Source: an uncultured Treponema sp. (GTDB lineage: Bacteria > Spirochaetota > Spirochaetia > Treponematales > Treponemataceae). From it: a stretch of DNA of 64,000 bases. Under the pieces are notes generated by a model. The model did not search any database, had not been told where the DNA came from, and saw nothing but the letters and a program-made list of their open reading frames with translations. The position numbers and the translations under genes are program-made. Positions 22,944 through 56,663 of this stretch are shown here, piece after piece. The first letter of the stretch is position 1. Every line of letters begins with the position of its first letter. The stretch is taken from the NCBI GenBank assembly GCA_947166355.1, contig CAMVDX010000004.1, positions 62,001 through 126,000 of the forward strand, given 5' to 3'.

Positions 22944-25529
22944 TTATTCATCCTTATAAAAATCAGGCTTGGACTCGTGTATTTTCTTGAGCTCTTTGAT
23001 TACCTGCTTTATGTCAATTGGCTTTGCAATGTGGCCGTTCATTCCGGCTTCAAGACATTCTGCCACATTTTCGGAAAAGGCATCGGCTGTCATTGCAATA
23101 ATCGGGATTCCGGCAGCATAAGGATTTTCAAGCTGGCGGATCTGGCGGGTTGCATCCAGACCGTTCAGCTGAGGCATCTGAATATCCATAAATACAGCAT
23201 CATACTGACTTGGCCCGATGTTGCGGAGCTTTTCTACAGCAACCTTTCCGTTTTCGGCACGGTCGCTGTTAATGCCGTACATCTCAAGCAAGGTATGAAT
23301 TATTTCCCAGTTTACGTCCATGTCTTCTGCAACAAGTACATTCATTCCGGCAAGCTCTGAATTATTTTCCTCCTGGTCAGCTGCATCTTTTTCTATTCCA
23401 AGAACCTCAGAAATCTTTTTGAAAAGGGAAGAACGGAAGAGGGGCTTGCTTATAAAGCCGCTCACACCTGCATTTCTTGCATCATCTTCAATTTGAGTCC
23501 AGTCGTAGGCAGAAACAAGAAGAATGGGTATGTCTTTTCCTGCAATTTCGTGAATTTTTTTTGTGAGTTCAAGGCCCGAAATTCCAGGCATTTTCCAGTC
23601 TAGAATGATTACATCATAAAGCCTGCCTTTCTCTTTTTTTTCACTTATTTTGGCAAGGGCTGTATTTCCAGAATCAGCAAGCTCTGCCCTTGCTCCAAGT
23701 GCTGTAAGGGTATCGCTGGCAGTTTCAAGCAGAACTTGGTCATCATCAACCACAAGAACGTCAAGAGGCGGCAGGTTCATTTCTTCTTCCGTCCTGTCGC
23801 TTATGCTTAATTCCAGAATTACGGTAAATGTCGTTCCTTTACCTTCCGTGCTCTGACATTCAATTGTACCGCCCATAAGGTCGACCATTCTTTTTGTGAT
23901 GGCAAGGCCCAGTCCTGTTCCCTGAATTTTATTGATGCGGCTGTCGGTCTGTCGGGTAAAAGGCGAATACATTTCCTTCATATATTCTGCCGACATTCCC
24001 ATTCCTGTATCTTCCACCTTATAGAAAAGCTTTATAAAGCCTGGCCTTTGGCTTTCCTCTTCCCACATATCTACATAAACGCTGTTTCCTTCGGGCGTAT
24101 ACTTTAGGGCATTGGAAAGAATGTTTATGAAAATCTGATTGATTCTAAGCTGGTCGGCATAAAGATACTCATGCTTAATGTTTTTACTGCGGAAGCGGAA
24201 ATCTATGTTTTTCTCGCGAACCATTGTCTGGGAAAGGTTTACAAGATTTTCTGCTGAATCTACAATTGAAAATGTTACAGGCGAAAGATTAAGCTTGCCG
24301 CTTTCAACCTTAGATATGTCAAGAATATCATTGATAAGGGTCAAAAGATGATTGCTGGCAAGGCGGATTTTCTTGAGGTTGTCTGTAACGGAAAATGGAT
24401 CCCTTGCGTTTTTTTCTGCAATCGTCGTAAGGCCGATAATTGCGTTCATAGGAGTACGGATATCGTGAGACATTGTAGAAAGGAAGTCTGTCTTGGCCTT
24501 GCTTGCAGATTCCGCTGCGGCCGCTGCAATTGTAAGCTTGACATTGAACCTCATAAAGACAATCAAATCAATTATCAGAAGCAGAAGCAGCCCGAAAGCA
24601 ATTACGCTGATTAGAATCCAGTCTATCTCATTTTCTTCAAAATATTTTGTAGGGATATAAGAAATGATTGACCAGTCAGACGCAGAATTTACAGGCACGT
24701 GAACAATAAGGCAGTCTTCTCCCTTTGAATTTTTCATTTTAAAGCTTCCGACTGTATGAACCCTGCTTTTTAACTCTTCAATCCTGCTGAAATCTGCTGG
24801 ATTATAGGATTTATAAAATTCAAAAAAGTTGGAGTTTTTAAATGACTTTCCTTTTATGATATAGTTACCGTCGGAATCAATCATGGATATCTGTGCATTT
24901 TCAAAGCGTTCTGTAGGAAAAGACCATTTTCCAGAAATGTTTTCAAGGGGAACAACCCTCATCAAAAGGGCTTTTTTTAAGGAGCCGGCGGAATCTGTAA
25001 GATTAACTACATCACAGAAGGCAATGGATTGAACTCCGTTCATAGGATTTGTATAAGAGCGGGTAACATGCACGGCATCAAAATTATCTGTATACAAATA
25101 TGTGCGGTGCTCCGGCTGCAGTTCTGAACTTATATTTTTCAGGGAAGAAAGAATATCTATATTCTGATAGGAAACAGTATTGTCGACCGGGTTGTCGGAT
25201 CTGGCTCTGTTGGAAAGGCCTGTAAGGCTGTCCAGATAAATTACATGGGAAGAATTTGTCTTTACTACCTGAACCTGCGTTAAGTAGTCAATTGCTTCAT
25301 TCATGGTAAGCCGGTTGGGACTTATGTATCTTGCCCAGGAATTACAAAGACGCTGCTCACCTTCAAGATAATAAGTAGTTACACGCTCAAGCCCAATGCT
25401 CATGTTTACAAAATTTTCAGTATTTGCCGCAGACTGAATTTTTCCCTGCTGCCTTACATAAAGGGAAACAAAAACCATTATAAAGAAAATAATCAGGATA
25501 TTTGCTATGAATATTGGAACTTTTCTCAT
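22944..25529 (-). CDS. hybrid sensor histidine kinase with two receiver domains
   Basis: 861 residues. Membrane helix ~7-27, extracytoplasmic sensor ~28-305, second helix ~308-330, HisKA with KTDFLSTMSHDIRTPMNAII (His ~355), HATPase with QIFINILSNALKYT, VEDTGMGMS and GTGLGLAI, then receiver 1 (VLVVDDDQ; ILDWKMPG) at ~600-720 and receiver 2 (VLVAEDMDVNW; VFMDIQMPQLNG) at ~735-855. All phosphotransfer residues are present. The separate HPt protein encoded just upstream supplies the next relay step. The linked solute-binding lipoprotein probably acts as its ligand sensor. Confidence 0.92.
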   Translation of the reverse strand: MRKVPIFIANILIIFFIMVFVSLYVRQQGKIQSAANTENFVNMSIGLERVTTYYLEGEQRLCNSWARYISPNRLTMNEAIDYLTQVQVVKTNSSHVIYLDSLTGLSNRARSDNPVDNTVSYQNIDILSSLKNISSELQPEHRTYLYTDNFDAVHVTRSYTNPMNGVQSIAFCDVVNLTDSAGSLKKALLMRVVPLENISGKWSFPTERFENAQISMIDSDGNYIIKGKSFKNSNFFEFYKSYNPADFSRIEELKSRVHTVGSFKMKNSKGEDCLIVHVPVNSASDWSIISYIPTKYFEENEIDWILISVIAFGLLLLLIIDLIVFMRFNVKLTIAAAAAESASKAKTDFLSTMSHDIRTPMNAIIGLTTIAEKNARDPFSVTDNLKKIRLASNHLLTLINDILDISKVESGKLNLSPVTFSIVDSAENLVNLSQTMVREKNIDFRFRSKNIKHEYLYADQLRINQIFINILSNALKYTPEGNSVYVDMWEEESQRPGFIKLFYKVEDTGMGMSAEYMKEMYSPFTRQTDSRINKIQGTGLGLAITKRMVDLMGGTIECQSTEGKGTTFTVILELSISDRTEEEMNLPPLDVLVVDDDQVLLETASDTLTALGARAELADSGNTALAKISEKKEKGRLYDVIILDWKMPGISGLELTKKIHEIAGKDIPILLVSAYDWTQIEDDARNAGVSGFISKPLFRSSLFKKISEVLGIEKDAADQEENNSELAGMNVLVAEDMDVNWEIIHTLLEMYGINSDRAENGKVAVEKLRNIGPSQYDAVFMDIQMPQLNGLDATRQIRQLENPYAAGIPIIAMTADAFSENVAECLEAGMNGHIAKPIDIKQVIKELKKIHESKPDFYKDE

Positions 25530-31282: not shown

Positions 31283-31292
31283 TTATATTAAC

Positions 31293-31308
31293 ACGACAAA
31301 GAGGTCGT
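31293..31308 (+). promoter_or_regulatory. ANTAR-type antiterminator hairpin, gltB leader
   Basis: Stem ACGAC/GTCGT closes the hexaloop AAAGAG (31298-31303), with A at loop position 1 and G at position 4, the signature of ANTAR-binding loops. The 3' arm GTCGT is also part of the 5' arm of the terminator at 31302, so the two structures exclude each other. Confidence 0.7.
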
Positions 31309-31356
31309 AGATAATGTTTCATTTTTATAATGAAATTTTGTCTACGACCTTTTTTG
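31302..31356 (+). terminator. leader terminator 1 of gltB
   Basis: AGGTCGTAGA (31302-31311) pairs with TCTACGACCT (31341-31350), with an inner TTTCAT/ATGAAA stem, followed by six T. It lies ~100 bases before the gltB start and would stop transcription unless the ANTAR hairpin forms. Confidence 0.85.
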
Positions 31357-31384
31357 TTTTTAAATAATCTGAAAGTCGACGAAG

Positions 31385-31425
31385 AAGCCGCAGGTATAGG
31401 ATAACTCTATGTCTGTGGCTTTTTT
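31385..31425 (+). terminator. leader terminator 2 of gltB
   Basis: AAGCCGCAG (31385-31393) pairs with CTGTGGCTT (31413-31421), followed by a T run. Just before it CGAC-GAAGAA-GCCG (31377-31390) could form a weak hexaloop hairpin (one A-C mismatch, G at loop position 1) overlapping the stem, as for terminator 1. Confidence 0.65.
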
Positions 31426-31451
31426 GTTTTTTTGACTTAAAAGGAAATTAA

Positions 31452-39319: not shown

Positions 39320-39886
39320 TTATCCATACATTCTGATAATTTCTTCTGCCAGAGTAATTCTTTTTAGACCGCGGTTCATTGCTTCTTTTTCAAGATAGTG
39401 ATGAGCTTCGGCCTCTGACATTTTTAACTGCTGCATCAAAAGCATCTTTGCACGATTTACCTGTTTAATTTCTTCCATTTTTACTTTTAGTTTTATTGTC
39501 TGACTGGAAAGAATCTGAACTCTGTATTGGACTGCGATTGCAATTTTCATCATATTGTAAAAGTAAAAAGGTTCAAAAGGTTTTGTAATTGTTAGTATTC
39601 CATAACCTTCTACACGATAAGATATTTCATCAAAATGTTCATTAGGAACCAAGAGTAGAATTGTCGAATATGAATCAGCAACATTTATTGCAAAATCTGT
39701 ATCGTAGCCATCACCTGAGTCAGCAATAATTATATTGAAGGTTCGCTCTGTTACTAACCGTCGGGCTTCATTAAAATCACTTGTCGTCGTAAGATCAAAA
39801 AGTGGTTGTACGAGGAAAGCGGAGATTTGAGAAATTATTTTATTATCGCGCGATACTAAAAGAACGCTGTGACTTTCTGCTTCCAT
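39320..39886 (-). CDS. ANTAR-domain response regulator (RNA-binding antiterminator)
   Basis: 188 residues. The N-terminal ~120 residues are a receiver-like domain (SVLLVSRDNKIISQISAFL; FNIIIADSGDGYD; ILTITKPFEPF). An Asp lies near the phospho-acceptor position, but the usual acidic pair and the Thr/Ser strand are not recognisable, so phosphorylation is doubtful. A helical linker leads to a clear ANTAR domain (~125-188: KMEEIKQVNRAKMLLMQQLKMSEAEAHHYLEKEAMNRG, TLAEEIIRMYG). ANTAR proteins such as NasR, AmiR and EutV bind hexaloop RNA hairpins to prevent termination. Last gene of the carB-asnB-carB-pyrG-glnA operon, which itself has such a leader. No cognate kinase is nearby. Confidence 0.92.
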   Translation of the reverse strand: MEAESHSVLLVSRDNKIISQISAFLVQPLFDLTTTSDFNEARRLVTERTFNIIIADSGDGYDTDFAINVADSYSTILLLVPNEHFDEISYRVEGYGILTITKPFEPFYFYNMMKIAIAVQYRVQILSSQTIKLKVKMEEIKQVNRAKMLLMQQLKMSEAEAHHYLEKEAMNRGLKRITLAEEIIRMYG

Positions 39887-39914: not shown

Positions 39915-41126
39915 CTAGTTTATTAGTTCTCCAAAAACCTTTTTTACAAAACTGCTGTTTTGTGCAAGCCTTTTAGCTTCTGATAAAGATTTTGGCAGTG
40001 CCTTTAATTCGCATTTTTTTGCGACTTCTTCATCGAATAAGTTTTCTTCTGTAACAGCAGGCGGTTCAATTTGATTTTTAATTCCTTCGATTGCAGCATT
40101 AATAAGAAGGGTAAAAGCAAGATAAGGATTACAAAGCGGGTCTGGAGAACGCAGTTCAAGTCTTTTTGTTCCTTTCGTTGAAGGAACTCGAATCAGAGTT
40201 GAGCGATTTTCTTTTCCCCAGGATATATATTCAGGAGCTTTGCTTGCCCCTAAACGGTTATATGAGTTTTCGACGGGATTTAGAAAATATGTAATTTCTT
40301 CTATATGTGACAGAATTCCACCAAGAATATACTTTAAGAGACTTTGTGAATTATCTTCAGTTGTTACCATATTGTTATTTCGATATGAAATATTTATATG
40401 CATTCCGTTACCTGCCTGACCTGCGATCGGCTTTGGAGAAAAATCTGCATATAGTCCATTACTTGCTGCCTTAGTATTAACAATCCATTTAAAGGTTGCA
40501 ACATTATCTGCGGCAGTAAGAGCATCTGAATAATGAAAATCAATTTCATTCTGACCTGGACCTTCTTCATGATGACTTGCTTCTGGACTAATTCCCATCT
40601 GTTCAAGAGTAAAACAAATTTCACGACGGATGTTCTCTCCATGATCTTCGGGAGCAATGTCCATATAACCAGCTTTATCAAAAGTTTCTGTTGTTGGTTC
40701 ACCGTTTTCGTTGAGCTTAAATAAATAAAACTCAACTTCAGTTCCAATCATCATTTCAATACCGCATTCATCTTTTAATTTTTTGCAGGCATTTTGTAAA
40801 ATAGTTCTACTGTCTTTTAGATACGGAGTTCCGTCAGAATTGAAAATATTACAGAACATTCGTACTACCTTTCCAGTAGCAGGACGCCATGGAATAATAG
40901 CAAGAGTTGAAGGATCCGGTAAAAGATAAAGCTCTGACTTCTGTGGGCCTTCAAATCCATCTATAGCAGAAGCATCAAACGGAATTCCGTGTTCGAAGGC
41001 ACGTTCCAGTTCTGTAGGCATAATTGAAATATTTTTTTGCTTGCCTTTTAAATCAAAAAAAGCAAGTCTTATGAATTTTACATCTTCTTCTTCAATAAAT
41101 TCTAATACTTCGCTTCGTGTATACAT
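39915..41126 (-). CDS. glnA: glutamine synthetase type I (short form)
   Basis: 403 residues, shorter than the usual ~440-470. Catalytic motifs: GTEVEFYLF, EEGPGQNEIDFHYSDALTAADN, PKPIAGQAGNGMHINIS, NRSTLIRVPSTKGTKRLELRSPDP. The adenylylation-site tyrosine loop of the beta type is not seen, so control by adenylylation is unlikely; this fits the alpha group. It makes glutamine from glutamate and ammonia. RBS GAGGG precedes the ATG. It lies between pyrG and the ANTAR gene. A second, type III, enzyme is encoded at 52668. Confidence 0.94.
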   Translation of the reverse strand: MYTRSEVLEFIEEEDVKFIRLAFFDLKGKQKNISIMPTELERAFEHGIPFDASAIDGFEGPQKSELYLLPDPSTLAIIPWRPATGKVVRMFCNIFNSDGTPYLKDSRTILQNACKKLKDECGIEMMIGTEVEFYLFKLNENGEPTTETFDKAGYMDIAPEDHGENIRREICFTLEQMGISPEASHHEEGPGQNEIDFHYSDALTAADNVATFKWIVNTKAASNGLYADFSPKPIAGQAGNGMHINISYRNNNMVTTEDNSQSLLKYILGGILSHIEEITYFLNPVENSYNRLGASKAPEYISWGKENRSTLIRVPSTKGTKRLELRSPDPLCNPYLAFTLLINAAIEGIKNQIEPPAVTEENLFDEEVAKKCELKALPKSLSEAKRLAQNSSFVKKVFGELIN

Positions 41127-41149: not shown

Positions 41150-41206
41150 ACCTGAACTTATTTCAGAGTCTCACAAAGAGATGCTGAAACAAGTTCACCA
41201 TGACAA
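41150..41206. repeat. dispersed palindromic repeat between pyrG and glnA
   Basis: CCTGAACTTATTTCAG followed by ATGCTGAAACAAGTTCACCAT, degenerate members of the CTGAAACAAGTTCAG family. It lies inside the operon and could attenuate or process the message. Confidence 0.7.
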
Positions 41207-43000: not shown

Positions 43001-44653
43001 TTACAAACTATGATTAATATCAACCAAACTTACATTGTCCAACGTATAAGAACTTGCTAGACAGTCAGCCAGTGCATTTGCTGTATCTAAAGCTGTAAGA
43101 CAATCAATATCACGTTCAACAGCAAGTCGTCTAAGTTTTACACTTTCTGCGACAGGATCACGTCCTTTTGCAGAAGTAGAAATTATATATACTACTTTTC
43201 CGCTTTCAAGCAGTGTCATTACATTATTATTATAATCTTCATGAACTTTTGCGATATGAGTAACAGGCATTCCACTTCGTTCAATTGTTATTGCGTTTCC
43301 TGTTGTTGCGTATAATTTAAATCCAAGATTATAAAATTTTCTCGCTAATGCAGGAAGCTCAGGTAAATCTGTTTGACGTACAGAAAATAGAACACCAAAA
43401 TTCTCGTCATGTTGAACTTGATTTTGCATCTCTTCTGACTGAGATTCCGAAACGAGTTCGGAATGATGGTTATTTGGCTTTATCATCTTCCAGCCAGCCG
43501 CACTCATTCCTTTGAATAAAGCTTCTTCCCGAGTAGATGCAATTCCAAGCACTTCTCCAGTACTTTTCATTTCAGGGCCAAGGTGAGTGTCAACATCCAT
43601 TAATTTTTCAAAACTAAAAACGGGAACTTTTACCGCGTAATATGATGGTTTTCGGTATAATCCGGTTCCGTATCCCATATCTTTAATTTTTTCGTTAAGC
43701 ATTGCACGTGTTGCAAGCTCAATCATAGGAACCTTACTTACTTTACTAAGATAAGGAACAGTACGGCTCGAACGAGGATTTGCTTCAATAATATATAGAT
43801 CATTTTCATAAATGAGATATTGAATATTTACAAGTCCTTTCGTTCCAAGTGCAAGTGCAAGATCAGTTGATTGTTTTACAATTTTTTCTTCGATATCTTT
43901 ATCAAAATTTCCTGGGTATACTGCAATTGAGTCACCCGAATGAATACCTGTACGTTCAATATGTTCCATAATTCCTGGAATTAAAACTGATTCACCATCA
44001 CAAATGCAGTCAACTTCAAGCTCACGGCCTTCCATGTATTTATCGATTAGAACAGGATTTTCAATTCCTCCACGAAGAATTATTTTCATATATTCTTTAA
44101 CATCAGCACTGTTTCGGGCAATAATCATATTCTGACCACCAAGTACATAACTTGGACGCATTAAAACCGGATAGCTGATTTTTTCGGCAGTTTCAAGAGC
44201 TTCAACTTCTGTAAAAACAGTTAGACCTCGAGGTCTTTTAATGCTAAGTTTATCGCACAACTGTTCAAATCTTTCACGGTCTTCTGCAAGGTCAATTGCA
44301 TCAGCACTTGTGCCAAGAATTCTTATTCCTTTGCTATCGAGAAATTTTGCAAGTTTAATTGCTGTTCCTCCTCCAAATGCAACTACAACTCCAAGAGGTT
44401 TTTCAACCTTTAATACATTCATCACATCATTTGGAGTCAGAGGTTCAAAATACAAACGGTCAGCCGTATCAAAATCTGTGGAAACAGTTTCGGGATTATT
44501 ATTTATAATCGCAACTTCATAGCCCAGTTTTTTTAAAGCATGCACGCATTGTACACTTGCATAATCAAACTCAATTCCCTGACCAATTCTGATTGGACCT
44601 GAGCCTAAAACAACAATCTTTTTGTTTGAAGCAGTATCTTCATCAATAGGCAT
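43001..44653 (-). CDS. carB: carbamoyl-phosphate synthase large subunit, C-terminal half
   Basis: About 550 residues, equal to the carbamoyl-phosphate synthetic domain plus the MGS-like allosteric domain of ordinary ~1070-residue CarB. Motifs: VVLGSGPIRIGQGIEFDYASVQC, YVLGGQNMIIA, LYIIEANPRSSRTVPYLSK, then LYATTGNAITIERSGMPV of the allosteric domain. The frame is open to 44722, but the cluster of three ATGs at 44653-44661 with CGGAG before it is the credible start; it overlaps the asnB stop by 11 bases. A polar insert (SELVSESQSEEMQNQVQHDE), from a dispersed palindrome, interrupts the linker to the allosteric domain. With the half at 46413 it should reconstitute the enzyme. Confidence 0.92.
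   Translation of the reverse strand: MPIDEDTASNKKIVVLGSGPIRIGQGIEFDYASVQCVHALKKLGYEVAIINNNPETVSTDFDTADRLYFEPLTPNDVMNVLKVEKPLGVVVAFGGGTAIKLAKFLDSKGIRILGTSADAIDLAEDRERFEQLCDKLSIKRPRGLTVFTEVEALETAEKISYPVLMRPSYVLGGQNMIIARNSADVKEYMKIILRGGIENPVLIDKYMEGRELEVDCICDGESVLIPGIMEHIERTGIHSGDSIAVYPGNFDKDIEEKIVKQSTDLALALGTKGLVNIQYLIYENDLYIIEANPRSSRTVPYLSKVSKVPMIELATRAMLNEKIKDMGYGTGLYRKPSYYAVKVPVFSFEKLMDVDTHLGPEMKSTGEVLGIASTREEALFKGMSAAGWKMIKPNNHHSELVSESQSEEMQNQVQHDENFGVLFSVRQTDLPELPALARKFYNLGFKLYATTGNAITIERSGMPVTHIAKVHEDYNNNVMTLLESGKVVYIISTSAKGRDPVAESVKLRRLAVERDIDCLTALDTANALADCLASSYTLDNVSLVDINHSL
43401..43470. repeat. dispersed palindromic repeat inserted in frame in carB
   Basis: ATGTTGAACTTGATTTTGCAT and ATTCCGAAACGAGTTCGGAAT match the intergenic repeat pairs at 20608, 21385 and 51001. 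Here they are translated (HHSELVSESQ...) without breaking the frame. Confidence 0.8.
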
Positions 44654-46397
44654 CATCATGAACTCCGGCAATTGCTCTTCCACTCGGCTCATCCATGTTT
44701 TTCCAGGCAGCATCCCATTCAAGCGCTTTTGCTGTTGAACAGGCTACACCGGCTTCATGAGGTACTGCTTTTGCTGCACTGTCACTTGGGAAGAGGCGAC
44801 TGTATATTTCGCGGTAATAGTATTCCTCTTTTGTTTTTGGAGGATTAACAGGGAAGCGGCTTTCTCTTCTTGCAAATTCTGCATCACTTACTTTTTCTTC
44901 TGTAATCTTTTTAAGAGTATCAATCCAGTTATAACCAACACCGTCAGAGAACTGTTCTTTCTGTCTCCATGCAATATCTTCTGGCAGCAGATCTTCAAAG
45001 GCTTTTCTCAAAATCCATTTTTCAATGCGCTGTTTCCCATCAGAAAGCCGAATGCTCATTTTATCTGATGGATTAAGTCCCATTGCGATATCAATAAAAT
45101 CTTTATCAAGGAAAGGAACACGACCTTCTACACCCCATGCCATTAAAGACTTATTTGCACGAAGACAATCATAAAGATGAAGCTTACTCATTTTTCTTAC
45201 AAGCTCTTCATGAAATTCCTGCGCATCTGGTGCTTTATGGAAATAAAGATAACCACCAAACAGTTCATCACTTCCTTCGCCGCTTAAAACCATTTTTATT
45301 CCCATAGATTTTATAACTCTTGCAAGAAGATACATCGGAGTAGAAGCGCGTACAGTTGTTATATCATAAGTTTCTATATGATAAATTACGTCTGGAAGAG
45401 CATCGAGAGCTTCCTGAATTGTAAAATGAACTTCGTGATGAACGGTACCGATATAATCGGCAGCTTTTTTAGCTGCAACAAGGTCTGGAGAACCTTCTAG
45501 TCCTACTGCAAAAGAATGGAGCTGAGGCCACCATGCAGATTCCTTACTGTCTGTTTCAATACGCTTTTTACTATATTTTTGAGTAACAGCTGCAATTATC
45601 GAAGAATCAAGACCACCGCTAAGTAATACACCATAAGGCACATCACTCATAAGCTGGGCTTTTACTGCACTTTCAAGTCCATTTCTAACTTTTTCAATAA
45701 CACTAGGATTGATTATTTCACCTTTTTCATTTGTAGCACGGGGAGCAGCTTTCACAGAAGTATAATCTTCCCATTCGCGTTTATACCATCGGGTAATTTT
45801 TTTATCACGACTCCATAAATAACTTCCGTTTGGAAATTCTTCAAGAGTAACACATTCACCTTCAAGTGCCTTTAATTCACTTGCGACATAATAGCGGTCT
45901 TCTTTATCCCAGCCTTGATATAATGGAATAACTCCAATTTCATCACGGGCAATAAGATATGTATCATTTTCGCTATCATAAAGTGCAAACGCAAAAATAC
46001 CGGAAAGTTCTTCTATCATTTTTGTAAAGTCACCAGATTCACGGTATTTTTTATAAAGTGGGATAATAACTTCGCAATCGCTTCCTGTGCGGAACTTGTA
46101 AGTTTCTGCTAACTTTGCGCGTATTTCTTTATGATTATAAATTTCACCATTTGCAGCAAGAATGATTTTTTCATCATCACTAACTAACGGTTGTTTGCCT
46201 GATAAAGGGTCTACAATCGAAAGACGTTCATGACTTAGAATTGCATTATTTCCTGTGTAAACTCCGCTCCAATCCGGACCTCTATGTCGAATTCTTTTAC
46301 TCATTTCCAAAACCTGTGCACGAAGTTCTTCTTTTAAGCCTTCTGCAATCGGCTGACTTCCACTGTTTAAATCAAAAGCTCCTACAAATCCACACAT
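44643..46397 (-). CDS. asnB: asparagine synthase (glutamine-hydrolysing)
   Basis: 584 residues. Catalytic Cys 2 in MCGFVGAF, then RHRGPDWSGV, LSHERLSIVDPLSGKQPL and NGEIYNHKEIR of the glutaminase; the synthetase domain has the P-loop PYGVLLSGGLDSSIIAAV and LSGEGSDELFGGYLYF. It makes asparagine from aspartate with glutamine and ATP. It is inserted between the two halves of carB, overlapping the start of the second half and 15 bases after the first, so all three are translated from one message. Confidence 0.95.
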   Translation of the reverse strand: MCGFVGAFDLNSGSQPIAEGLKEELRAQVLEMSKRIRHRGPDWSGVYTGNNAILSHERLSIVDPLSGKQPLVSDDEKIILAANGEIYNHKEIRAKLAETYKFRTGSDCEVIIPLYKKYRESGDFTKMIEELSGIFAFALYDSENDTYLIARDEIGVIPLYQGWDKEDRYYVASELKALEGECVTLEEFPNGSYLWSRDKKITRWYKREWEDYTSVKAAPRATNEKGEIINPSVIEKVRNGLESAVKAQLMSDVPYGVLLSGGLDSSIIAAVTQKYSKKRIETDSKESAWWPQLHSFAVGLEGSPDLVAAKKAADYIGTVHHEVHFTIQEALDALPDVIYHIETYDITTVRASTPMYLLARVIKSMGIKMVLSGEGSDELFGGYLYFHKAPDAQEFHEELVRKMSKLHLYDCLRANKSLMAWGVEGRVPFLDKDFIDIAMGLNPSDKMSIRLSDGKQRIEKWILRKAFEDLLPEDIAWRQKEQFSDGVGYNWIDTLKKITEEKVSDAEFARRESRFPVNPPKTKEEYYYREIYSRLFPSDSAAKAVPHEAGVACSTAKALEWDAAWKNMDEPSGRAIAGVHDDAY

Positions 46398-46412
46398 TTC
46401 TCATATCCTCCT

Positions 46413-47987
46413 TTATCTCTTTTCATTTATAAAATATTCAGCTTCATTTAAGCCGCTTGCTGTAGAATAAAAATATGGAGTTTCTGCTTCAAACTCTCCG
46501 GCGCAGGTATCAACCATTTTGAACGAACGCGGAGGGTAGAGCAGAGAATCTGATAATTGTTTCTGATGCTCTTTTTCCATATTTACAATATTCATTAATT
46601 TCCACAAAAACCATTCATCAATTTTTGTAATATTATGAATTTCTTCAACGGACATTAATCCTCTTTTTAATGCCTGATAAATTGCAAAAATTCTTTGATC
46701 GGTGCATTGGCTGACTCTCTCACGGATTTTAGAATCAGACTCTTTTTCAAAGGCAGGGAGATTTAAATCTTTTACACCGATTTCTGCACCACGGGCTGCT
46801 TTTAAAATTGCTTCTTCAAAATTCTGACCTATTGCCATAACTTCGCCTGTCGCCTTCATCTGAGTTCCAAGATTTCGTGCAGCATATACAAATTTATCAA
46901 ATGGAAATTTCGGCATTTTTACAACTACATAATCAAGTACAGGTTCAAAGCACGCTTTAGTTTTCTTAGTTACAAAGTTTGGAATTTCGTCCAGGGTAAA
47001 ACCTACTGCAATAAGCGCAGCTACTTTTGCAATCGGATATCCTGTTGCTTTACTTGCCAGGGCTGACGAGCGTGATACTCGGGGATTTACCTCAATCACC
47101 GCATATTCAAAACTATCCGGATTCAGGGCAAACTGACAGTTACAGCCGCCTTCTATTTCAAGGGCGGAAATTATGTTGAGGGCTGCAGAGCGCAGCATCT
47201 GATATTCTTTATCTGCAAGGGTAACTGTTGGTGCAATTACAATTGAATCTCCGGTATGAACTCCAACCGGGTCAAAGTTTTCCATTGAACATACTGTAAT
47301 AACGTTTCCTGTGCTGTCACGTATTACTTCAAATTCGATTTCTTTCCAGCCGCTAATACATTTTTCTACAAGTATCTGGTGAATAGGCGAGCGGTGAAGT
47401 CCGTTATGTGCAATCTCATCAAGTTCGCGTTCATTTTTTACAATTCCGCCTCCTGTACCGCCGAGTGTAAATGCGGGACGAATAATTGCAGGAAAACCTA
47501 TTTCATTGTGAACAAAATCTGCGGCGTCTTCGTAAGTTGTAACTACCTTTGATGGAATACAAGGTTCGCCGATTGCTTCCATTGTGTCTTTGAACATTTG
47601 CCTGTCTTCAGCTTTATCAATTGTTGCAGGACGGGCACCCAAAAGCTGAACATTATGGCTCGCAAGAAAGCCGGATTTTGCCAGTTCCATACTAAGTGTA
47701 AGACCAGTCTGACCGCCCAAAGTTGAAAGCAGGCTGTCTGGTTTTTCTTTTTCGATTATTCTTTCGAGAGTTCTCAGAGTAAGCGGTTCAAGGTAGATTT
47801 CATCTGCCATATAATGGTCTGTCATCAAAGTTGCCGGATTTGAGTTTACAAGACAAACTTCAAGTCCAAGAGACTTAAGTGCCTTGCAGGCCTGGTTTCC
47901 GGCATAGTCAAATTCTGCCGCCTGCCCGATTATAATTGGACCAGAACCGATTACCATTACTTTGTGGATTTTACTATTTAATGGCAT
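46413..47987 (-). CDS. carB: carbamoyl-phosphate synthase large subunit, N-terminal half
   Basis: 524 residues covering the carboxyphosphate domain ([69 protein letters not shown]) and a shortened oligomerisation domain. The end reads [21 protein letters not shown], which in one-piece CarB lies ~20-30 residues before the second ATP-grasp domain, so the break falls exactly in the linker. The helical segment between [10 protein letters not shown] and [12 protein letters not shown] looks ~35 residues shorter than in E. coli. Split carB genes are known in Aquifex and Methanocaldococcus. First gene of the operon; AAGGAGT precedes the ATG. Confidence 0.93.
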
Positions 47988-49699: not shown

Positions 49700-49755
49700 T
49701 TAATAACTTCCTATATAAGTTATGCTGACGCAGCTATAGTGCTGTCAGTATGAAC

Positions 49756-49812
49756 AAAAAAAAGACGCTCATTCCATCTGGGGACAATAATTCCTCAAAT
49801 CAAATGAACGCC
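49756..49812 (-). terminator. leader terminator of carA
   Basis: Minus-strand GGCGTTCATT pairs with AATGAGCGTC (two wobbles), followed by at least eight T. It lies ~60 bases before the carA start. Confidence 0.8.
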
Positions 49813-49819
49813 TTTGTTC
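49806..49819 (-). promoter_or_regulatory. ANTAR-type antiterminator hairpin, carA leader
   Basis: Minus strand GAAC-AAAGGC-GTTC. The stem extends past an A-A mismatch by three more A-T pairs. The hexaloop has A1 and G4. GTTC is shared with the terminator 5' arm. Confidence 0.7.
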
Positions 49820-49825
49820 TTTTAA

Positions 49826-49854
49826 GTTATACAGCGTATGAAAAATATCGTCAA
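49826..49854 (-). promoter_or_regulatory. sigma-70 promoter of carA
   Basis: Minus strand TTGACG (49854-49849), 17-base spacer, TATAAC (49831-49826). It is divergent from, and 31 bases away from, the dapF promoter. Confidence 0.8.
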
Positions 49855-49885
49855 TAGTTATTAGTAGTATTTATTAGAACTACTA

Positions 49886-49914
49886 TTGACATTTAACAAT
49901 AATAAAGTTAAAAC
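49886..49914 (+). promoter_or_regulatory. sigma-70 promoter of dapF
   Basis: TTGACA at 49886-49891; the -10 is weaker (TAAAAC, 49909-49914, 17-base spacer). RNA would begin at about 49920, at the hairpin. Confidence 0.6.
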
Positions 49915-49920
49915 AAACTA

Positions 49921-49936
49921 ACGGCAAAGAGGTCGT
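49921..49936 (+). promoter_or_regulatory. ANTAR-type antiterminator hairpin, dapF leader
   Basis: ACGGC-AAAGAG-GTCGT: five base pairs including one G-U, hexaloop AAAGAG as in gltB. The 3' arm is shared with the terminator. Confidence 0.7.
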
Positions 49937-49982
49937 AGATATAAATCTCCTCAAGGGATTTATGTCTACGACCTCTTTTTTT
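49929..49982 (+). terminator. leader terminator of dapF
   Basis: GAGGTCGTAGA (49929-49939) pairs perfectly with TCTACGACCTC (49965-49975), with inner ATAAATC/GATTTAT, then seven T. Confidence 0.88.
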
Positions 49983-49983
49983 A

Positions 49984-50014
49984 TTGCAGATTGATAATTG
50001 TTATCAATCTGCAA
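49984..50014. promoter_or_regulatory. perfect 14-base palindrome, Fur-box-like, in the dapF leader
   Basis: TTGCAGATTGATAA-TTG-TTATCAATCTGCAA. The core TGATAAT-T-GTTATCA differs by one base from the 7-1-7 Fur consensus TGATAATNATTATCA. It may be a metal-regulator site or simply an RNA hairpin; it lies downstream of the terminator, which is unusual for an operator. Confidence 0.45.
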
Positions 50015-52489: not shown

Positions 52490-52501
52490 TAAAATAACAA
52501 A

Positions 52502-52515
52502 CGACAATGAGGTCG
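52502..52515 (+). promoter_or_regulatory. ANTAR-type antiterminator hairpin 1, glnN leader
   Basis: CGAC-AATGAG-GTCG. Hexaloop with A1 and G4; the 3' arm is shared with terminator 1. Confidence 0.7.
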
Positions 52516-52543
52516 CAGAAATGGTATTTCTGCGACCTTTTTT
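52510..52543 (+). terminator. leader terminator 1 of glnN
   Basis: AGGTCGCAGAAAT (52510-52522) pairs perfectly with ATTTCTGCGACCT (52526-52538) with a 3-base loop, then a T run. Confidence 0.9.
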
Positions 52544-52592
52544 GTTTTTAAAATTTCCGACTGCCGTTGGCATGTTCGGAGAAACTAACAAT

Positions 52593-52606
52593 CGGCAAAG
52601 ACGCTG
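52593..52606 (+). promoter_or_regulatory. ANTAR-type antiterminator hairpin 2, glnN leader
   Basis: CGGC-AAAGAC-GCTG (one G-U pair). Hexaloop with A1 and G4; GCTG is shared with the second terminator stem. Together with hairpin 1 it makes a two-gate leader. Confidence 0.7.
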
Positions 52607-52651
52607 CGTTTTCATTTTGATGTACACAGAATGAAAGTGCAGCGTTTTTTT
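52601..52651 (+). terminator. leader terminator 2 of glnN
   Basis: ACGCTGC (52601-52607) pairs with GCAGCGT (52639-52645), with inner TTTTCATT/AATGAAA, then seven T. It ends only 17 bases before the glnN start codon. Confidence 0.88.
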
Positions 52652-52667
52652 ATATAGGAGAATAATA

Positions 52668-54778: not shown

Positions 54779-54848
54779 AATCCTGAGCAAGGTAATCTGT
54801 CATCCTGAACAAGATGATTTGTCATCCTGAACTTGATTCAGGATCTAT
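54779..54848. repeat. tandem dispersed repeat, TGTCATCCTGAAC units
   Basis: Three imperfect units (AATCCTGAGCAAG, GTCATCCTGAACAAG, GTCATCCTGAACTTGATTCAGGAT) of the same palindrome family. It probably contributes to termination after glnN. Confidence 0.75.
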
Positions 54849-54884
54849 ATTGTAACGAAGAGAGTTTATTTAATTTGTGATTAT

Positions 54885-54941
54885 ACGGCGATGATGTCGG
54901 GCATTTGTGCACAATGTCTGATATCATCGCCGTTTTTTTTA
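54885..54941 (+). terminator. leader terminator of the amtB-PII gene
   Basis: ACGGCGATGAT (54885-54895) pairs with ATCATCGCCGT (54923-54933), with inner GCATT/AATGT pairing, then eight T. A competing hairpin CGGC-GATGAT-GTCG (54886-54899) has a hexaloop with G4 but G instead of A at position 1. I could not assign a convincing promoter upstream. Confidence 0.8.
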
Positions 54942-54974
54942 TTCATAAAACGAACTTACACAGGAGGTATACTT

Positions 54975-56663
54975 ATGAGTGAAGTTTGGAGCGTATGGTT
55001 CCTTATTGGTGCTGCACTTGTATTCTTTATGCAGTGCGGTTTTGCAATGGTTGAAACTGGTTTTACAAGAGCAAAGAATGCGGGAAACATCATTATGAAA
55101 AACCTGATGGATTTCTGTATCGGAACTCCAATGTTTATGTTGCTCGGATTCGGTTTGATGATGAGCGAAAATTATTTCTTTGGCTTGATAGGTAAGCCAA
55201 ACATGCAGTTATTTACAAACTTTGCAGAAGGAGACTGGTCTGCATTTGTATTCAACCTGGTTTTCTGTGCAACTGCTGCAACAATCGTTTCTGGTTCAAT
55301 GGCAGAAAGAACAAAGTTCTCTGCTTACTGTATTTACTCAGCTGTAATCAGTGCTGTAGTTTATCCAATTGAAGCAGGCTGGGTTTGGAACTCACAGGGC
55401 TGGCTCGTTCAGCTTGGATTTGTAGACTTTGCTGGTGGTGCTGCTATTCACTCAGTTGGTGGAACTGCCGCTCTCATTGGTGCAATTTTCCTTGGTCCAC
55501 GTATCGGAAAGTATGATTATGACAAGGATGGAAAGGTAACAAAGGTTCATGCTATTCCCGGTCACTCTTTGACACTTGGTGCACTCGGAACATTCATTCT
55601 GTGGTTCGGATGGTACGGATTTAACGGTGCTGCATGTACACAGCTTCTCGGAGTAGGCGGTCTTGCTGCAGTATTCACAACAACAACAATTGCTCCGGCA
55701 GTTGCAGCAGTTACAACAATGCTCTTTACATGGATTAAGAACGGTAAGCCTGATGTTTCCATGACACTCAACGCTTCGCTTGCAGGTCTTGTTGCAATTA
55801 CACCGACTTGTGCTACAGTTGATGCACTCGGAGCATCTATCATTGGTATTGTTTCAGGTATCATCGTAGTTGTTGTAGTAGAATTACTTGACCTTAAGCT
55901 CCATATTGATGACCCGGTTGGTGCCGTAGCAGTTCACCTTGCAAACGGTATCTGGGGTACATTAAGTGACGGTTTGTTCAATGTTGAAAGCGGTGTATTC
56001 TACGGTGGAGGATTCAAGCACCTTGGTGTTCAGTGTCTTGGAGAGTTCACAATTGTTGCATGGACAACAGTCTGTATGATTCTTACCTTTACATTGATTA
56101 AGAAGCTCCACGGTCTTAGAGCAAGCCGCGAAGAAGAAATTGTCGGACTTGATAAGCTCGAACACGGAATCGATTCAAGCTACGCAGGCTTTATCATGGC
56201 ACCACAGGTAATGACAGAAGGAGAAGCTGGACTAGGTGCATCATCTGCTATAAGTGGTTCTGTTTCAATTGAAAAGTCAGTACCAGTTGCAAAGGCAACT
56301 TCCCGCCCTGATGCTAAGTTCCACATGGTTACAATCATTACACGCCAGAGCAAGTTTGAAGATCTCAAGGCTGCCATGAACGACATCAACGTAACAGGTA
56401 TGACAGTTACAAACGTACTTGGTTGCGGCCAGCAGCATGGAAACGTTCAGAAGTATCGTGGTGTTGAAATGGATATGACTCTTCTGCCAAAGATTAAGGT
56501 TGATATCGTAGTCAGCGAAGTTCCGGTAGACCTTGTTGTAACAGCCGCTAAGGAAGTTCTTTACACAGGCCACATCGGTGATGGAAAGATTTTCGTATAC
56601 GATGTTGAAAATGTTGTAAAGGTTCGTACCGGTGAAGAAGGGTACGAAGCACTTCAAGACTAA
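54975..56663 (+). CDS. amtB: ammonium transporter fused to a C-terminal PII signal domain
   Basis: About 562 residues. Residues ~1-405 are an Amt/AmtB channel: ~11 membrane segments, FVDFAGGAAIHSVGG (Asp and first pore His) and GAVAVHLANGIWGTL (second pore His). After a ~40-residue linker, residues ~450-555 are a GlnB/GlnK PII domain (HMVTIITRQSKFEDLKAAMNDI; TVTNVLGCGQQHG; KYRGVEMDMTLLPKIKVDIVV). PII normally plugs AmtB as a separate protein; here it is tethered. The uridylylation Tyr51 position of the T-loop is Met, so no uridylylation there. The frame opens at 54891, inside the terminator; ATG 54975 with AGGAGG is the true start. Confidence 0.93.
   Translation: MSEVWSVWFLIGAALVFFMQCGFAMVETGFTRAKNAGNIIMKNLMDFCIGTPMFMLLGFGLMMSENYFFGLIGKPNMQLFTNFAEGDWSAFVFNLVFCATAATIVSGSMAERTKFSAYCIYSAVISAVVYPIEAGWVWNSQGWLVQLGFVDFAGGAAIHSVGGTAALIGAIFLGPRIGKYDYDKDGKVTKVHAIPGHSLTLGALGTFILWFGWYGFNGAACTQLLGVGGLAAVFTTTTIAPAVAAVTTMLFTWIKNGKPDVSMTLNASLAGLVAITPTCATVDALGASIIGIVSGIIVVVVVELLDLKLHIDDPVGAVAVHLANGIWGTLSDGLFNVESGVFYGGGFKHLGVQCLGEFTIVAWTTVCMILTFTLIKKLHGLRASREEEIVGLDKLEHGIDSSYAGFIMAPQVMTEGEAGLGASSAISGSVSIEKSVPVAKATSRPDAKFHMVTIITRQSKFEDLKAAMNDINVTGMTVTNVLGCGQQHGNVQKYRGVEMDMTLLPKIKVDIVVSEVPVDLVVTAAKEVLYTGHIGDGKIFVYDVENVVKVRTGEEGYEALQD

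Follow-up and report, generated by a model that had tools for sequence, protein, structure and literature searches.

The RNA targets of ANTAR regulators are described as paired small hairpins, each with A as the first (A1) and G as the fourth letter (G4) of a six-base loop, of which the second overlaps a terminator (PMC3369931, PMC8934654). The A1/G4 hexaloop is presented as the signature of such targets, and ANTAR control of nitrogen genes is reported to be widespread (PMC3369931). EutV of Enterococcus faecalis is phosphorylated, as judged from BeF3 density at Asp54 (PMC8934654), and its eut leaders contain two hexaloops with linkers of 5-12 nt (PMC8934654, PMC3369931). EutV is reported to bind one hexaloop at a time, yet both are needed for antitermination; the same account suggests that a lone hexaloop is the smallest motif for binding, to be expected where the time limit set by the transcribing polymerase is absent (PMC8934654). 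AmiR of Pseudomonas aeruginosa is described as a non-phosphorylated pseudo-receiver joined to an ANTAR domain and controlled by AmiC (PMC3369936), and NitR of Clostridium saccharobutylicum as an ANTAR regulator through which GS/GOGAT is induced by antitermination under nitrogen limitation (PMC6316151).

We analysed a window of 64,000 nucleotides from an uncultured Treponema sp. whose genome (89% complete) groups with Treponema bryantii-like rumen treponemes, its nearest named relatives. The one ANTAR gene found in this genome lies at 39320..39886 on the minus strand of the window and encodes a protein of 188 aa, with a pseudo-receiver (residues ~6-120), a long helix and an ANTAR domain (residues 132-184); the plus strand over 39320-39886 is stop-rich. 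We consider it likely that this protein is a one-component antiterminator of the NitR/AmiR kind which controls a nitrogen regulon through targets with a single 5'-terminal hexaloop, and whose pseudo-receiver is set by a partner. The likeness to NitR is that of an ANTAR regulator of GS/GOGAT genes, and is taken from the published description of NitR.

The original prediction, made from the sequence alone, had read this open reading frame as an ANTAR regulator, and the Pfam ANTAR profile bears this out (55.3 bits, E 5.5e-15, residues 132-184; cut-off 27.3). The Pfam Response_reg profile gave 14 bits, below its cut-off of 30.2, and all NCBIfam matches to the protein were far under their cut-offs. 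The receiver-like fold that had been proposed for the N-terminal domain, with structure comparison as the check, was recovered in an AlphaFold2 model (mean pLDDT 92.1, pTM 0.72), which has a receiver of five strands followed by a long helix and an ANTAR bundle. Chains of Rv1626, EutV and AmiR make up its six best matches in the PDB. AmiR is among the best matches in sequence as well as in fold. When the ANTAR domain was aligned with EutV, 5 of the 11 RNA-contact residues were identical (K141, K147, E158, M170 and N171, including the Met plug M170), three were similar (R145, H162 and K175) and three were lost (I140, E166 and G173). His162 replaces the G4-stacking Tyr of EutV, as it does in AmiR.

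Directly upstream of the ANTAR gene lies glnA (39915..41126, minus strand), which encodes a type I-like glutamine synthetase with Pfam Gln-synt_N and Gln-synt_C domains (NCBIfam GlnA 383 bits, under the cut-off of 429). The same order, i.e. glnA followed directly by the ANTAR gene, was found at all 58 loci with a full-length relative (L002-L059, which include some genomes twice); at L060, which has one short partial ANTAR match, glnA was not found. Conversely, 23 of 24 same-genus genomes carry glnA copies of this type, 24 copies in all as one genome has two, and an ANTAR match adjoins 23 of the copies. The remaining copy (genome G013) ends 175 bases before the end of its contig, and the remainder reads as the start of an ANTAR gene of a second Treponema type (e.g. 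L053-L059). Genome G001 has two distinct glnA-ANTAR pairs (L040 and L059), as if the pair were inherited as a unit. The NitR gene of C. saccharobutylicum lies near glnA as well.

The wider neighbourhood is rich in nitrogen genes, as the original prediction had stated for glutamine enzymes. In addition to glnA, the window holds gltB, gltD, purF, pyrG, carA, dapF, an aminotransferase gene, a split carB with asnB, the type III glutamine synthetase gene glnN and a gene for an ammonium transporter that bears a fused PII domain at its C-terminus (54891-56663, plus strand). The carB gene, which codes for the large subunit of carbamoyl-phosphate synthetase, is divided into two genes that flank asnB (43001-47987, minus strand), the second of which overlaps the end of asnB; in some relatives both halves are present but asnB does not separate them. 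Two intergenic regions (54780-54855 and 41150-41200) contain short palindromes with the words TGAACTTG/TTCAG, resembling a dispersed repeat. No attenuator was found by our scan (see below) in the glnA leader of the window, which has a palindrome resembling the dispersed repeat instead.

This setting bears on a second explanation, close to what the original prediction had suggested, in which the pseudo-receiver itself binds glutamine, 2-oxoglutarate or the PII domain of the transporter fusion, rather than GlnA. The glutamine enzymes all around, the nearby PII domain and the possible attenuator of the transporter gene are consistent with such sensing. However, the constant direct neighbour of the ANTAR gene is glnA and not the transporter gene, and nothing links PII to the receiver, so that we regard direct sensing of this kind as unlikely, if the strongest of the alternatives.

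The antiterminator reading requires RNA targets, which the original prediction had not noted and which are the most informative part of the evidence on the protein's role. We scanned the window for a single A1/G4 hexaloop hairpin that shares its 3' half with the 5' arm of a terminator. The scan found five sites (gltB, carA, dapF and, twice, glnN), compared with a mean of 0.017 in 60 dinucleotide shuffles of the window. When other letters were allowed at loop positions 1 and 4, the 15 remaining combinations gave 4 sites in total, against 5 for A/G alone. The leaders share a common design, in which a sigma-70-like promoter is followed at once by a hexaloop hairpin overlapping the 5' arm of the terminator. 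The gltB attenuator (31292..31360, plus strand; ACGAC-AAAGAG-GTCGT) overlaps its terminator and scores 72.3 bits with our attenuator models. The carA attenuator (49755..49821, minus strand; GAAC-AAAGGC-GTTC) belongs to subtype 1 and scores 80.2 bits, being itself one of that model's 7 seeds. A further attenuator precedes dapF and the aminotransferase gene (49920..49984, plus strand; ACGGC-AAAGAG-GTCGT; 71 bits), and two stand in tandem before glnN (52500..52548, plus strand, CGAC-AATGAG-GTCG, 56.1 bits; and 52591..52655, plus strand, CGGC-AAAGAC-GCTG, 56 bits), no promoter of its own being recognised for the second.

Two less regular elements were also seen. The gltB leader contains a second, degenerate attenuator (31375..31431, plus strand; 33.3 bits), in which the terminator is kept but the hexaloop hairpin is lost, the loop having G in position 1 and the stem a length of 1. 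A possible attenuator of the ammonium transporter-PII gene (54885..54940, plus strand; CGGC-GATGAT-GTCG) was found by eye and missed by the model; its loop has G in place of A at position 1. The listed start of the transporter gene lies inside this element, and a later ATG near 54976 looks better. When the window and nine relatives were scanned for classical dual-hexaloop leaders, the one hit, which we attribute to chance, lay within gltD of the window and the relatives had none; Rfam gave no match in the window or in the loci of three relatives.

The attenuators of carA (minus strand) and dapF (plus strand) are divergent and ~100 bases apart from start to start (49755-49984), which places two promoters under nitrogen control in a single short intergenic region. 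The glnN attenuators are ~90 bases apart in the window, and the tandem arrangement recurs at L114, L116, L117, L118, L120 and L121; two stops in series before glnN may give sharper control. The genes from carA to glnA and the ANTAR gene form a same-strand run, with carA first and the ANTAR gene last. Because the ANTAR gene ends a run headed by an attenuator, it may be self-regulated through the carA attenuator, if the run is one transcript.

The leaders of relatives have the same design and fall into two subtypes. MAFFT aligned these out of register, and the subtypes were therefore modelled separately (R1 and R2); R1 missed the carA site. One scan hit (L028) was judged to be a chance hit and dropped before the seeds were made. 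In the 15 subtype 2 seeds every cell of the terminator helix is paired (100%), and double changes are seen at 10 of its 12 pairs; the pairing is lost when the partner strand is shifted. As seeds were picked for pairing, the wider match set counts for more. Over 114 model matches (antisense included, 106 distinct), in an alignment fitted to the helix, 96.6% of cells in the terminator helix are paired and 263 are doubly changed, compared with 65 in shuffles.

The hexaloop hairpin provides a separate test, because its 5' arm has no part in the modelled terminator. Removal of antisense and duplicate rows from the 114 matches left 93 distinct sense matches, among which the three inner pairs of the hairpin are kept in 90, 85 and 89, values that equal or exceed nearly all of 2000 shuffles; the fourth pair is borderline and the two outermost give no signal. 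When the 15 seeds are taken by themselves, this hairpin has no double change. The loop has A at position 1 in 88/93, A at position 2 in 90/93 and G at position 4 in 91/93, statistics that are partly circular since the model was trained on A1/G4 seeds. The leaders carry the feature by which ANTAR targets are described, i.e. a hexaloop with A1 and G4 overlapping a terminator, a likeness to EutV that extends from the protein fold to the RNA.

They differ from the EutV leaders in the number of hexaloops. A second A1/G4 hexaloop (stem of at least 4) was present 18-45 nt upstream in 0/93 matches and downstream in 2/93. Promoter placement fits this observation. An upstream promoter scoring at least 10/12 was found for 60/93 matches, compared with 4% of shuffled upstreams, and one scoring at least 9/12 for 70/93, compared with 28%. 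For those 70 the distance from the end of the -10 element to the loop is 10 to 26 nt, most often 16. If the start distance is the usual one, the RNA begins a few bases before the hairpin, and so there would be no room for a first hairpin. The Treponema system is therefore unlike that of EutV on two counts, EutV being phosphorylated and using two hexaloops, whereas here the receiver pocket is broken (see below) and none of the 93 matches has an upstream hexaloop.

We applied the attenuator model to 39 relatives with a threshold of E 0.01. Every one of the 16 genomes that carry this ANTAR type has between 2 and 10 matches, some of these being antisense, while 15 relatives from the order without ANTAR have 0; six genomes with only the second ANTAR type have 0, 1, 1, 2, 0 and 0, and two same-genus genomes without a detected ANTAR gene have 1 each. 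Downstream sequence was read for 78 matches, of which 67 precede homologues of the nitrogen genes of the window and two more precede asnA and a glutamate dehydrogenase gene, giving 69/78 before nitrogen genes and 9 before others. One match in the window's own genome that lies outside the cluster (C3, L152) is not before a nitrogen gene and looks false.

The association was also seen across 146 genomes of the genus Treponema at E 1e-4. Attenuators were found in 67/69 genomes with this ANTAR type (mean 4.0) and in 31/77 without it (Fisher's test, p 1.3e-14, a value that ignores the relatedness of the genomes). The latter group comprises genomes with the second ANTAR type only (24/57 with attenuators, mean 0.7) and genomes with no detected ANTAR (7/20, mean 0.8); of those 20, 12 are at least 90% complete, and two of these have a match, one being G013, where the contig ends within an apparent second-type gene. 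The second ANTAR type may share the attenuator target.

The attenuators outside genomes with this ANTAR type are what might be expected if the leaders were under other control, e.g. by a leader peptide or another RNA-binding protein, with the ANTAR protein acting on targets elsewhere. We find this improbable, as the A1/G4 hexaloop is the signature published for ANTAR targets (PMC3369931), the hairpin stands at the 5' end and overlaps the terminator, and the 15 order relatives without ANTAR have no matches at all.

The remaining question is how the protein receives its input. We aligned it with 12 canonical receivers, namely the best-scoring 12 of 39 receiver matches in the same genome, and compared six key positions of the receiver, all of which are kept in each of the 12 (6/6). 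The window protein has Ser12 and Arg13 at the acidic positions 1 and 2, Val80 at the Thr/Ser switch and Thr99 at the aromatic position, and retains Asp56 (the phospho-Asp) and Lys102, i.e. 2/6. Among 24 close relatives, including the window protein, the score is 2 in 21, 1 in two and 3 in one. Acidic position 1 is acidic in 0/24 and acidic position 2 in 1/24, the switch aromatic is present in 0/24, Thr is found at the switch position in 10/24, and position 102 is K in 12, N in 10 and S in 2. Asp56, by contrast, is present in 24/24 and also in 7 members of the second ANTAR type; Asn occurs at this position only in 2 Bacillota sequences. Asp14 is likewise invariant in the 24 relatives despite the lost pocket, in which Lys102 is replaced in half of them.

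The phosphorylation chemistry of this receiver is lost. The original prediction was right that the acidic pair and the switch Thr/Ser are unrecognisable, and the alignment that it had named as contrary evidence, with all phosphorylation residues present, was not seen. It overlooked the phosphoacceptor Asp56, and the strand TITKPF, which it called conserved, keeps its Lys in this protein but in only 12 of the 24 relatives. Aspartate-less receivers (ALR) are defined by a replaced phospho-Asp (PMC4395418), and the presence of Asp56 places these proteins outside that group. A receiver fold without phosphorylation chemistry, joined to an ANTAR domain, is the AmiR-type architecture, and the window protein shares it. 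The second Treponema ANTAR type is similar in following glnA and in its degenerate receiver (2 or 3 of the 6 positions in 7 members), but is only ~38% identical, and attenuators are rarer where it is the sole type.

Kinases were also considered. HisKA_2 is the kinase class usual for ANTAR response regulators, and a family search found none in the window's own genome (89% complete). No kinase gene adjoins the ANTAR gene, which agrees with the earlier claim that a partner kinase is missing; the nearest one identified is a HisKA hybrid kinase at 22944-25529, a stretch in which five open reading frames were scanned. Phosphorylation of Asp56 by an orphan kinase, leading to dimerisation and RNA binding as in EutV, would fit the invariant Asp56, the Lys102 kept here, the 39 receiver matches in the genome and the presence of at least one HisKA kinase in the window, but is disfavoured because the pocket is degenerate, with the metal-binding acidic pair gone, the aromatic residue missing and Lys lost in half of the relatives, and with neither a HisKA_2 kinase found in the genome nor any kinase next door it is very improbable.

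We therefore return to the one-component antiterminator. The ANTAR protein probably binds the leader hairpins, probably allows read-through when bound, and probably responds to nitrogen limitation. In the mechanism that we propose, RNA polymerase would start a short way before a small hairpin whose loop of six bases usually reads A-A-N-G-N-N. If the hairpin is unbound, its loop and 3' arm would pair with downstream RNA to form the terminator, stopping transcription before gltB, carA, dapF, glnN and other genes. An active ANTAR domain would grip and stabilise the hexaloop hairpin, which would block the terminator and allow the operon to be read. One hexaloop per attenuator would be enough, with no need for an upstream recruitment hairpin. 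Several observations sit less easily with antitermination by this protein: attenuators also occur in 24/57 second-type-only and 7/20 ANTAR-less genomes; three EutV RNA contacts are lost, with His162 in place of the G4-stacking Tyr; the invariance of Asp56 in 24 relatives would fit a residual role; and in the published EutV system a lone hexaloop gives no antitermination.

Activity would not be set by aspartate phosphorylation; the pseudo-receiver would instead answer to a partner, as AmiR does to AmiC. The best candidate is the glutamine synthetase encoded directly upstream, because glnA is the one constant neighbour. The choice of GlnA is the least certain part of the proposal, a tentative suggestion drawn from gene order and the AmiC-AmiR precedent. 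AmiR and the Treponema protein differ in this respect, AmiC being amide-binding, whereas the gene that always adjoins the Treponema one encodes a glutamine synthetase. The single hexaloop of the Treponema target is a further difference. It is conceivable, though doubtful, that GlnA in a glutamine-bound or feedback-inhibited state holds the pseudo-receiver and that its release opens a regulon of minimal attenuators, each with one hexaloop right at the start of its RNA, with GlnA as the sensor. If true, such a self-contained nitrogen circuit would amount to an ANTAR system that acts during transcription with one hairpin, where the published recruitment-hairpin model demands two.

ANTAR control of nitrogen genes is already known as a kind, since NitR has been reported for GS/GOGAT and such control is widespread. 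In the literature that we searched, no earlier report was found of the Treponema regulon or of attenuators with one 5'-terminal hexaloop, and it is this single 5'-terminal hexaloop that sets them apart from the paired hexaloops described for ANTAR targets. Why ANTAR targets have two hexaloops is described as an open question (PMC8934654), and it would become directly accessible to experiment with a natural, genus-wide set of attenuators that have one hexaloop, placed at the 5' end. Rumen treponemes would in addition gain a defined nitrogen regulon, and the system would be a clean one in which to study what the pseudo-receiver of an ANTAR protein senses.
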